This document shows positions 36,002 to 42,684 of a stretch of DNA of 45,986 nucleotides, one piece after another (the stretch's first letter is position 1; the number at the start of each line of letters is the position of its first letter). This stretch comes from Prochlorothrix hollandica PCC 9006 = CALU 1027. GTDB lineage: Bacteria; Cyanobacteriota; Cyanobacteriia; Prochlorotrichales; Prochlorotrichaceae. The notes under the pieces were generated by a model. It saw only the letters and a list, made by a program, of their open reading frames with translations. It made no database searches and had not been told where the DNA came from. The stretch spans positions 40,290-86,275 of the forward strand of contig NZ_KB235942.1 in the NCBI RefSeq assembly GCF_000332315.1. The letters are read 5' to 3'. The position numbers were made by a program, and so were the translations under genes.

Positions 36002-37255
36002 ATGATAACCCTGACGTATGAATACAAGCTAAAACCGACCAAGCAGCAGGTCGAACAGATCGACCACGATCTAGAGGTGTGCCGCCGGGTTTGGAATTAT
36101 GCGCTGAAAGAGCGCAAGGACTGGATTGCTTCTCGCAAGTGCCCGGTCAATGCTTGTTCTTTGCGTAGCGAGTACATCATTCCGGCAGATGAACCCTATC
36201 CCAGTTTCAGTGTGCAGTGCCAACGGCTGACTGAGGCTAAACGGCTAAATACCGACCTGGCTTCCGTGAACGCTCAGGTTTTGCAGCAGATCTTGAGGCG
36301 TTTAGACCAAGCATTTGACCGTCGCAAAAAACTAGGGTTCGGGTTTCCACGGTTCAAAAAACCGGGGCAAATGCGGTCATTCTCGTTTCCTCAACTAGGC
36401 AAAATGCCATTGAAGAATGGGTCCGTTCAATTGCCTGGGCTGGGCTGGATGGCCATTCGGCAATCTCGGCATTACCCAGAGGGCTTTGCCGTCAAGCAGG
36501 CTAGGGTTGTCAAGCGAGCATCAGGCTATTACGTCATGCTCACCTTTCAGGCTGATATCGTCATCCCAGACCCACCGCTGGTGGGTCATGTCGTGGGTGT
36601 TGATGTGGGCTTGGAATATTTTCTCTCCACTTCGGACAGGCTTCAACTAGAGCGGCCCAAGTTTTTTGTGGATCTGCAACGCAAGCTTAAATCGCTGCAA
36701 CGCAGACTGAAGCGAAAGCAGATTGGGTCAGCCAACTGGAAGAAGGCTCAGCTCAAAGTGTCACGGTTGTATGAACACATTGCCAATGCCCGCAAAGACT
36801 TTCACTTCAAGGTGGCTCACCAGCTTTGTGATGTCGCTGATGTGATTGTGGTTGAAGCCTTGAACCTGATTGGCCTCAGTCGCGGGATGTTAGGCAAGCA
36901 CATGCTAGATGCAGGTCACGGACAATTCCTTAACTCGGTGCTGCCCTGGGTTGGCTTTAAGCGTGGCAAAGCCGTGGTCAAGGAAAAAGCTGCGGGTACC
37001 TCTCAAGAGTGCCCTGCCTGTGGCGAAGCAGTTCGCAAAACGCTTTCAACTCGATGGCATGAATGCCCTTGTGGGTGCTCCATGCCTAGGGATATTGCCA
37101 GTAGCTTGGTACTGCGCAATAGATTTCAGCAACGCTGCGGGATGAGCAGTGTTAAAAATGCCCCTGGAGAGGTTCTGGTGGGGAGTGTTCTGCACTCTAG
37201 TCAAGACTCTGTGAACGGGGAATCTCCTGCTATACGCGAAGCGTTAGCGGGATGA
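36002..37255 (+). CDS. tnpB: IS200/IS605 TnpB RNA-guided nuclease
   Basis: The 417-residue TnpB has an N-terminal helix-turn-helix region (YEYKLKPTKQQVEQIDHDL, VWNYALKER). The RuvC parts follow: GVDVGLEYFLS (first aspartate, about residue 200), VIVVEALNL (glutamate near 283) and PRDIASSLVL (last aspartate near 364). A zinc ribbon CPACG...CPCGC lies just before the last motif. The usual DRD is PRD here, but the catalytic D remains. Its 3' end overlaps the element's right end, where TnpB elements encode the guide RNA. It looks full length and potentially active. Confidence 0.95.
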   Translation: MITLTYEYKLKPTKQQVEQIDHDLEVCRRVWNYALKERKDWIASRKCPVNACSLRSEYIIPADEPYPSFSVQCQRLTEAKRLNTDLASVNAQVLQQILRRLDQAFDRRKKLGFGFPRFKKPGQMRSFSFPQLGKMPLKNGSVQLPGLGWMAIRQSRHYPEGFAVKQARVVKRASGYYVMLTFQADIVIPDPPLVGHVVGVDVGLEYFLSTSDRLQLERPKFFVDLQRKLKSLQRRLKRKQIGSANWKKAQLKVSRLYEHIANARKDFHFKVAHQLCDVADVIVVEALNLIGLSRGMLGKHMLDAGHGQFLNSVLPWVGFKRGKAVVKEKAAGTSQECPACGEAVRKTLSTRWHECPCGCSMPRDIASSLVLRNRFQQRCGMSSVKNAPGEVLVGSVLHSSQDSVNGESPAIREALAG

Positions 37256-40756: not shown

Positions 40757-40827
40757 CATTGCATGTAAGTTATCCAAGGCTATTAAGACAAGGGGTGCAT
40801 CCCGCTTTGGCTGCCCTCACCCTAAAT

Positions 40828-40895
40828 CCCTCTCCCAGAACGGGAGAGGGACTTTGAACGTTCTGGCTCCCCTTCTCCCGCCCTGGGAGAAGGGG
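40828..40895. repeat. Two adjacent palindromes
   Basis: CCCTCTCCC-AGAAC-GGGAGAGGG (40828-40850) and CCCCTTCTCCC...GGGAGAAGGGG (40869-40895), a spacer motif found in many bacteria. It may terminate nudC transcription, though without a T tract. Confidence 0.7.
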
Positions 40896-40946
40896 CGGGG
40901 GGAGGAGGGATGAAGAGCAAGTTACCAAACTGGGATGCTCCCAAGA

Positions 40947-40988
40947 CAAGACTATTAACCCAAGACTATTAACCCAAGACTATTAACA
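40947..40988. repeat. Short tandem repeat, 3 units of 14 bp
   Basis: CAAGACTATTAACC units; the last runs into the AGAGGAG ribosome site of hflX. Confidence 0.8.
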
Positions 40989-40998
40989 GAGGAGAAGC

Positions 40999-42684
40999 AT
41001 TATCGAAACCATTTACGGCAAACTGAACGGCCTTAAATCCAGTCACCTCAAGCAACTACAGCGGCTGTATCAGCAGCGGATTCCGGGCGATCGCCTCACC
41101 ACCCCCGAATTTGCCCAACGCCTTGCCGCCCTCAGCAGCGAGATGGGTCAGCCCCTGTCGGTGTACCTCAATCGCCGGGGCCAAGTGATCCGGGTGGGGG
41201 TGGGAACCCCGCGCCAGACCCAGATCCCTCCCCTGGAACTGCCCCGCTATGGGGCGGAGCGCCTCTGTGGGATTCGCTGCATCACCACAGATCTCAAGGG
41301 GGAAGCCCCCAGCAGTGCCACCCTCACCGCCATGGTGCTCCAGCGCTTGGATGTCCTGGTGTCCCTGAACATTACGGGCCAGGGCTTCACCCGGCGCGGC
41401 GGCACCGCCACGGGCTATGTGGAAACCACCTATGTGGCCCATCTCCTGTCCCAGCCCGATACCCCTTGGCAGGTGTTGCCGCCCCAGAGCCTGGAGGTGG
41501 TGGCAGAGCAGGATTTTCTGGATTTGGTGGAGGGACTGGAGGAAGAGTTCCGCCAAGACGTGGTGGGCAATGTGGTGGATCTGGACCACGATCGCGTGAT
41601 CGTGGTGGGGCTAAAAACCCAGGGTCGCCGGGATCTGCAATTTGAGCAGGGTCTGACGGAGGTGCGGCGACTGGTGGAATCGGCGGGGGGGGAAGTGCTG
41701 GACACCCTGCGCCAAAACCGCGATCGCCCCCATCCCCAAACCGTCGTCGGGGAAGGCAAGGTGGAGGAGATCGCCCTCGCCGCCCAAACCCTGGGGGCTA
41801 ATTTAATTGTCTTCGATCGCGATCTCTCCCCCGCCCAGGGCCGCAACCTGGAACGGCAAATCGGGCTGCGGGTGGTGGATCGCACCCAGGTGATTTTGGA
41901 TATTTTTGCCCAACGTGCCCAGTCGGGGGCGGGCAAGCTCCAGGTGGAACTGGCCCAACTGCAATACTGTATGCCCCGGCTGACGGGCCAGGGTCAGGCC
42001 ATGTCTCGGTTGGGGGGCGGCATTGGCACCCGTGGACCGGGGGAAACCCAGTTGGAAACGGAGCGCCGCACCATCCAGCAGCGCATTAGCCGGTTACAGC
42101 GGGAAGTCAGCCAACTCCAGGCCCACCGCGCCCGCCTGCGCCACCAACGGCAACACCAGGACGTGCCCTCCGTGGCCCTAGTGGGCTATACCAATGCCGG
42201 TAAGTCTACCCTTCTCAATGTGTTGACCTCGGCGGAGGTCTATGTGGCGGATCAACTGTTTGCCACCCTGGATCCCACCACCCGCCGCTTGGTGTTGCCC
42301 CAAACGGAAGCCACCCCCCCCAAAGCCCTGTTAGTCACCGATACCGTGGGCTTTATCCACGAACTGCCCCCCTCCCTGGTGGATGCCTTCCGGGCCACCC
42401 TGGAGGAAGTGACGGAATCCGATGCCCTGCTCCATGTGGTGGATTTGTCCCATGATGCCTGGAAGACCCAAATTGAGGCGGTCAACAAAATTCTAGGGGA
42501 AATGTCCATGCCCCCCGGACCCAGCTTGCTGGTGTTCAATAAGGTGGATCAGGTGCCCAGTGAGGTGTTGGCCACGGCCCAGGAACATTACCCCCAAGCG
42601 GTGTTTGTGTCCGCCACCGATCGCCTGGGCCTGACCACCCTGCGCCAACGCATTGAGCAGTTGGTGACCTATGCCCAGTTGTGA
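40999..42684 (+). CDS. hflX: Ribosome-associated GTPase HflX, probable non-ATG start
   Basis: HflX splits stalled or heat-damaged 70S ribosomes. The 561-residue reading has a long cyanobacterial N-terminal part, the HflX domain (TVVGEGKVEEI, LIVFDRDLSPAQGRNLE, RTQVILDIFAQRA), a glycine-rich MSRLGGGIGTRGPGETQLE, and the G domain (G1 GYTNAGKST near 396, G3 DTVGF, G4 NKVD). The first ATG is at 41143, but the frame is open to 40987 and encodes ETIYGKLNGLKSSHLKQLQ and TTPEFAQRL, which I recall in cyanobacterial HflX proteins. AGAGGAG sits 4 nt before ATT 40999 and 7 nt before ATC 41002, so one of these may initiate. If not, the protein starts at 41143. Confidence 0.9.
   Translation: MIETIYGKLNGLKSSHLKQLQRLYQQRIPGDRLTTPEFAQRLAALSSEMGQPLSVYLNRRGQVIRVGVGTPRQTQIPPLELPRYGAERLCGIRCITTDLKGEAPSSATLTAMVLQRLDVLVSLNITGQGFTRRGGTATGYVETTYVAHLLSQPDTPWQVLPPQSLEVVAEQDFLDLVEGLEEEFRQDVVGNVVDLDHDRVIVVGLKTQGRRDLQFEQGLTEVRRLVESAGGEVLDTLRQNRDRPHPQTVVGEGKVEEIALAAQTLGANLIVFDRDLSPAQGRNLERQIGLRVVDRTQVILDIFAQRAQSGAGKLQVELAQLQYCMPRLTGQGQAMSRLGGGIGTRGPGETQLETERRTIQQRISRLQREVSQLQAHRARLRHQRQHQDVPSVALVGYTNAGKSTLLNVLTSAEVYVADQLFATLDPTTRRLVLPQTEATPPKALLVTDTVGFIHELPPSLVDAFRATLEEVTESDALLHVVDLSHDAWKTQIEAVNKILGEMSMPPGPSLLVFNKVDQVPSEVLATAQEHYPQAVFVSATDRLGLTTLRQRIEQLVTYAQL

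Follow-up and report, generated by a model that had tools for sequence, protein, structure and literature searches.

The hflX start region of Prochlorothrix hollandica

The window analysed here is a stretch of 45,986 nucleotides from Prochlorothrix hollandica PCC 9006 (contig NZ_KB235942.1), and all coordinates are those of this stretch. It carries a coding sequence of 560 codons plus stop on the plus strand (41002-42684) that matches the HflX family TIGR03156 with a score of 476 bits against a cut-off of 216.75 (E 6e-143), and whose product, by family membership, is assigned as the ribosome-splitting GTPase HflX. The hflX frame is closed on its 5' side by an in-frame TAA (40984-40986, plus strand). 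Downstream of this, on the same strand, lie a Shine-Dalgarno (SD)-like AGAGGAG (40988-40994), the triplet ATT (40999-41001), the triplet ATC (41002-41004), which is the proposed initiation codon, and GAA (41005-41007). As the initial annotation claimed, the frame contains no ATG, GTG or TTG from the TAA to the ATG at 41143-41145 (plus strand), which is codon 48 counting from the ATC, and the AGAGGAG is spaced 4 nt from the ATT at 40999 and 7 nt from the ATC at 41002. The codons that precede the ATG at 41143 are also, as it held, conserved HflX sequence, the first 133 residues being 57-80% identical to those of the 37 other rows of the N-terminal alignment. It had left the start as either ATT or ATC. 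Relatives align at ATC 41002, and this half of the proposal is retained; the ATT at 40999 is rejected as a start, the aligned relatives having CCT, CTT, TCT or TTT there. It is numbered codon -1 in what follows and gives the di-pyrimidine TT at positions -2,-1 before the ATC. The leader in the window is of the SD type and is without a hairpin.

The DNA just 5' of hflX is repetitive. A perfect tandem repeat with a 14-nt unit, CAAGACTATTAACC, present in 2.9 copies (40947-40987, plus strand), adjoins the hflX SD, and its last copy supplies the in-frame TAA. Next to it is a MITE-like dispersed repeat (40786-40946, no strand assigned) of about 150-160 bp, rich in inverted repeats, with 53 matches in the window's own genome. 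This is flanked by copies of similar CTATTAA repeats, CCAAGGCTATTAA at 40774 and ACAAGACTATTAA at 40946. The MITE-like element may have come between hflX and the leader it originally had, or replaced the upstream region that relatives have. An open reading frame at 36002-37255 resembles what we take, from its C-terminal zinc-finger-like motif, to be a TnpB-type protein of IS200/IS605.

The N-terminal region of the protein

HflX chains in the PDB match the protein with an E of 4e-93 from residue 170 on, and about 170 extra N-terminal residues (residues 1-170, encoded by 41002-41511) precede the part covered by the solved HflX structures. A Pfam search with the first 196 residues gave no family even at an E of 1. 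In an AlphaFold2 model (27 loci) most of this extra region is predicted with high confidence, residues 11-70 reaching 89-91 pLDDT per ten-residue block, with predicted helices at residues 13-24 and 35-48 followed by strands at 52-56 and 61-67. The remainder of the model matches known HflX. The ATG at 41143 was rejected as a start; initiation there would cost the protein its first predicted helix (13-24) and almost the whole of the second (35-48).

The aligned codon in class Cyanobacteriia

The window's order and family having no other genome in the set searched, the comparison was made at the level of the class. With the full-length protein as query some match was found in 59 of 59 relatives, the matches in a few being confined to other GTPases. 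With the first 134 residues as query, 269 of 388 class genomes gave a match at an E of 1e-25, the 119 others being uninformative at this threshold. Start regions were read for a subset of these matches, made up of loci from both protein searches, 76 fetched stretches (mostly one per genus) and 20 more, a non-random sample in which the first loci were the best-scoring and the remainder mostly one per genus. Because the loci are related the counts are not independent, and a thinned set of 81 loci below 70% identity was used beside the full one. Identical starts were left out, as were four second copies (L134-L137), L002, which is another GTPase, and L133, whose N-terminal region could not be aligned. 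A further 80 named loci, which overlap partly with the other genomes, were kept out of the counts.

The codon aligned to ATC 41002 (codon 0) is ATC in 87, ATA in 33 and another codon in 7 of 127 distinct non-paralogous loci, that is, ATC or ATA in 120. After the addition of 15 more class loci the figures are 95 ATC, 36 ATA and 1 ATT, or 132 of 142, and a tally by eye places AUC or AUA hflX in more than 30 families. A comparison of hflX start codons among relatives had been proposed in the initial annotation, and at the class level it bears out the unusual start. A canonical start often appears in loci that have lost the ATC, ATA or ATT codon (L003 TTG, L019 GTG, L124 ATG, L130 TTG and L340 ATG). 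The rest of these ten loci comprise L025 and L065, with ATT one codon upstream and no ATG nearby, L128 and L346, with only an ATG 13-19 codons upstream, and L343, with neither such a codon nor a nearby canonical start. Both the sole ATT locus of the 132 (L342) and one ATC locus (L341) have an ATG two codons upstream.

Evidence for initiation at the AUC/AUA codon

A codon-like pattern of conservation sets in exactly at the codon aligned with ATC 41002. In the 132 aligned loci the mean pairwise mismatch at codon positions 1/2/3 is 0.71/0.69/0.69 over codons -12 to -5, 0.10/0.04/0.58 over codons 0 to 3 and 0.22/0.07/0.59 over codons 4-11, codon 0 having been used to select the rows and codons 1 onward being the clean evidence of conservation. 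The choice of codon 0 is unlike that of an ordinary isoleucine codon: ATT is nearly absent there (1 of 132) yet is the commonest isoleucine codon internally (197 of 427). ATC, ATA and ATT number 95, 36 and 1 at codon 0 versus 183, 47 and 197 at codons 1-49 (chi-square p 4e-21, from rows that are not independent), and 71, 9 and 1 versus 104, 20 and 127 internally in the thinned 81 loci.

A di-pyrimidine occupies positions -2,-1 in 120 of the 132 loci, compared with 14 of 132 one codon upstream, and is found at the same positions before 25 of 30 canonical starts of der. According to PMC5622118, a di-pyrimidine at -1,-2 has been suggested to play a part when cyanobacteria initiate translation. 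The frequency of SD-like 4-mers is highest 6-12 nt before the aligned codon, and 46 of 132 loci have neither a hairpin (see below) nor an SD 4-mer at 5-12 nt. The same reading applied to der gave ATG, GTG or TTG in all 30 loci; era was unusable as a control, having a variable N-terminus.

In 89 of the 132 loci there is no in-frame canonical start upstream of the aligned codon, and the first canonical start downstream in these loci has a median position of codon 34, and comes no earlier than codon 20 in 65 of them. The other 43 have an in-frame ATG, GTG or TTG upstream, at codon -2 in 20 of them, and some of these 43 may start there. The window itself combines, as infC-type starts do, a start of the AUC class, as read from the sequence, with no usable in-frame canonical start. 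Since codon-type conservation begins at ATC 41002 and the di-pyrimidine that precedes it matches the starts of der, the start is placed there and not at ATT 40999, and we consider it very probable that hflX is translated from ATC 41002 in P. hollandica and from the matching AUC or AUA across most of the sampled class.

It is improbable that translation begins instead at an NNG triplet at codon -2 (ACG, GCG, GTG or ATG), which would make the ATC or ATA an ordinary third codon. Among 120 loci codon -2 is indeed ATG, GTG or TTG in 17 and mostly has G as its last base in the others, it is the nearest upstream canonical start in 20 of 132, and ATG stands there in several of the 80 named loci. It is, however, also GCG, AAG, TCG, GGG and others, and in L081, L082, L088 and L335 a stop codon lies directly before codon -1; codon -1 itself (CCT, CTT, TCT or TTT) cannot start, and an ordinary isoleucine codon at codon 0 would show ATT. 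As a general rule a start at codon -2 is rejected because of these stops and non-start codons.

More doubtful still, to the point of being very improbable, is translation from a more distant upstream start, canonical but out of frame, with programmed frameshifting into the hflX frame. An open reading frame with a canonical start in another frame reaches the codon in 85 of 132 loci, which would often happen by chance, but for 32 of the 132, among them that of the window, none of the three frames offers a canonical start with a reading frame that reaches it. The 45 nt upstream hold no ATG, GTG or TTG at all in 32 of 120 loci, and nothing upstream is conserved in codon fashion. A programmed frameshift gene is rejected, as the other-frame reading frame is absent in those 32 loci and so is not a property of all members.

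A sequencing error, or a true start at ATG 41143 with the first 47 codons untranslated, was a caveat of the initial annotation itself and a single assembly of this species was used, but the error fails as an explanation because ATC or ATA stands at the same codon in most of the class relatives read (132 of 142 loci with ATT counted, from independent genomes of the more than 30 families), and the whole reading is barely credible given the codon periodicity over codons 1-47, the prediction of the region as two N-terminal-domain helices at about 90 pLDDT, and the 65 of 89 loci without an upstream canonical start that are also without one for their first 20 codons. Initiation at the AUC of hflX looks instead like a deliberate feature, a brake or a sensor, because AUC or AUA is common to hflX across most of the cyanobacterial families sampled.

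A hairpin upstream of the start codon

A hairpin with a stem end 7-11 nt before the codon and a score of at least 11 is present in 42 of the 132 loci, and of the 49 hairpins detected in all, 26 lie at a distance of exactly 10 nt from it. Most typical is GRCCAG-N4-CTGGYC; its variants include GACCC/GGGTC, GACTC/GAGTC and GGATCGG/CCGATCC. At a score of 12 there are 41 hairpins against 7.7 in composition shuffles. The arms match within a locus and not between loci: in arm chimeras made between loci, 12.7 +/- 3.1 hairpins are found against the 42 observed when all 132 loci are used, and 3.6 +/- 1.6 against 18 observed for the thinned 81. The chimera test was run on all 132 loci to avoid the preselection bias of a count of double changes in the stem, which gave 19 against 2.8 +/- 2.1 in 40 loci preselected for a hairpin. 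The 40 were taken from the 49, two having been dropped by hand as doubtful and the rest by spacing or stem length, a selection that inflates the count. In one family of 16 genomes (f32) the hairpin together with a CGCCTAT pattern occurs once in 15 of the genomes and not in the remaining one, each occurrence being at hflX by its coordinates.

An SD-like 4-mer lies close 5' of the hairpin in 29 of the 42 hairpin loci, at a distance from the codon that looping out of the hairpin would reduce to 7-12 nt; in 28 of the 42 this effective distance is 8-12 nt. An SD 4-mer at 5-12 nt is found directly before the codon in 5 of the 42 hairpin loci versus 44 of the 90 that are hairpin-less, so that the hairpin and a direct SD tend toward mutual exclusion. 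The covarying stem between SD and start that defines a split ribosome-binding site is seen in 42 of 132 loci and is absent from the window. Among 35 loci with both a hairpin and a -10-like box, preselected for a gap of 7-11 nt, the distance from hairpin to codon has a standard deviation of 0.8 nt versus 2.8 nt for that from hairpin to box, and this greater steadiness relative to the codon points to a translational role for the hairpin.

Single-sequence folding of four leaders was not convincingly better than that of shuffles (z 1.33, -0.19, -1.57 and 0.57), and an Rfam scan of 7 loci found no hflX-leader family, its one sub-threshold match being off-strand and nothing being matched at the leader. 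The codon before the start is CCT in 35 of 42 hairpin loci and in 19 of 44 SD loci. In two of three folded hairpin leaders AGG is paired with CCT, and because of this pairing the modelled leader may close a second helix over the SD and the start.

A possible link to initiation stringency

According to a portion of PMC4611024, IF3 discriminates against AUU, AUC and AUA starts, unlike AUG, GUG and UUG, and in part of PMC9067457 HflX is described as splitting 70S ribosomes, with IF3 stopping the re-association of 30S subunits. At the AUC or AUA of hflX the initiator tRNA would be expected to initiate with fMet, and because of the third-base mismatch with the initiator anticodon the output would be low and dependent on context. 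That context would be the di-pyrimidine before the codon together with either an SD at 5-12 nt or the hairpin about 10 nt upstream, the hairpin presumably acting as RNA and, with its purine-rich 5' flank, possibly placing an SD-like stretch at an effective distance of 9-11 nt. Cyanobacterial hflX would then probably be a low-output gene, held down by a conserved weak start that the context features keep working.

Since AUC, AUA and AUU are rejected by IF3, hflX, besides being probably low in output, may read the stringency of initiation. If IF3 were limiting, or initiation relaxed, hflX synthesis would, less surely, rise, and the supply of a 70S-splitting factor would thereby be tied to the state of initiation. 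The free 30S subunits made by HflX would have to be kept apart by IF3, and this would close a loop that other bacteria build on infC itself. Control by IF3 or by initiation fidelity can reasonably be inferred from the established biochemistry of IF3. That hflX synthesis does respond to IF3 or to initiation stringency is nevertheless proposed only tentatively, and we are just as cautious in suggesting that cyanobacterial hflX could be a class-wide sensor of initiation stringency, whose AUC/AUA start makes the synthesis of the 70S-splitting factor respond to free IF3.

It may well be that the AUC/AUA start merely caps HflX at a low and constant level without sensing IF3, the hairpin being a DNA operator or an mRNA-stability element. 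Such a reading competes with the IF3 step alone and leaves the AUC/AUA start as it is. A low-output start alone suffices to explain the codon, and the hairpin is palindromic and follows a -10-like box, TANAAT being found 60-24 nt upstream in 102 of 132 loci; against the operator or stability element stands the steadier position of the hairpin relative to the codon than to this box. As regards the proposed response to IF3, a second, weaker IF3-like match was seen in 10 of 39 genomes (for example G000:C1:1425946-1426395), mostly ending at about model position 154-160, and two forms of IF3 would be relevant to any start that senses it.

Relation to known systems

In E. coli infC, the gene for IF3, the start is AUU and the gene is autorepressed by IF3 (cited in PMC9845219). 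Like it, cyanobacterial hflX belongs to the translation machinery and has a start of the AUU/AUC/AUA class; it differs in the gene itself, in the use of AUC or AUA and hardly ever AUU, and in the hairpin with matching arms that is often present. The parallel with infC drawn in the initial annotation is therefore kept as a principle only: for most of the infC genes tested in cyanobacteria an ATG or GTG is found near the start, with a possible exception at L245, where the nearest in-frame candidate is ATC, so that in these genomes the weak codon belongs to hflX rather than to infC. The rarity of ATT at codon 0 among the relatives, which prefer AUC and AUA, is unlike the AUU of E. coli infC.

The AUU start of E. 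coli pcnB limits expression of that gene. The likeness is a weak start that would hold a protein at a low level; the gene is a different one, and the cyanobacterial feature spans a class. At the split ribosome-binding sites of T4-type phages a hairpin brings SD and start together. Hairpin loci of hflX have a comparable order of SD-like purines, hairpin and start at a normal effective spacing, the cyanobacterial arrangement being a proposal from sequence. Leaders of hflX genes outside the cyanobacteria include the uORFC-6-1 motif upstream of hflX in Bacillales (PMC8632094, in excerpt) and the rli80 leader of hflXr in Listeria (PMC9067457, likewise in excerpt). In these, as may be the case here, the leader links hflX expression to the condition of the ribosome; they are uORF or attenuator leaders, whereas in the cyanobacteria a short hairpin and the start codon itself would make up the element.

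Starts of the AUU/AUC/AUA class are very rare. Among 61,358 ancestral AUG starts in 36 genome triplets a single switch from AUG to AUU is given in the excerpts of PMC5622118. A start of this rare class is kept by hflX across a class of bacteria, which makes strong selection on it probable. Whether genes other than infC respond to initiation fidelity becomes a question open to direct test in ordinary laboratory strains of cyanobacteria, where the hflX start would offer a natural reporter for IF3 activity. A further prediction is that automatic annotation may clip the first codons of HflX in many of these genomes. The cyanobacterial hflX start is not named in those parts of the literature that were searched. 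Outside these lie a Synechocystis study of 64 refined ORFs, the subject of a comment (PMC13339759), and Gvozdjak and Samanta 2020, which is cited in PMC9845219; either of the two may deal with hflX.

The hflX start outside the class and in second copies

In the sister class of the phylum the N-terminal region is found in 5 of 18 genomes. Two of these loci have no in-frame canonical start upstream and carry ATC behind GGAGG (L328) or ATT behind GAGGAGG (L331). A third also has ATT behind GGAGG, but with an upstream frame that is open and contains GTG and TTG codons (L329), and in L330 and L332 an ATG is at or next to the aligned codon. A search of plasmids gave one distant homologue only, in a 2.1-Mb Fusobacterium record, which begins ATG ATA AAT GGA AAT, its ATG being two codons further on than the aligned codon. 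From the starts in the sister class and in Fusobacterium the N-terminus of HflX is therefore at about the same place. As judged from these loci, a non-AUG codon of hflX reaches beyond the class and is not universal. Among the second copies of hflX, L134 (G053) and L137 (G024) keep a hairpin-like ACCAG...CTGGT together with CCT ATC GAA, and L135 and L136 have ATG instead.
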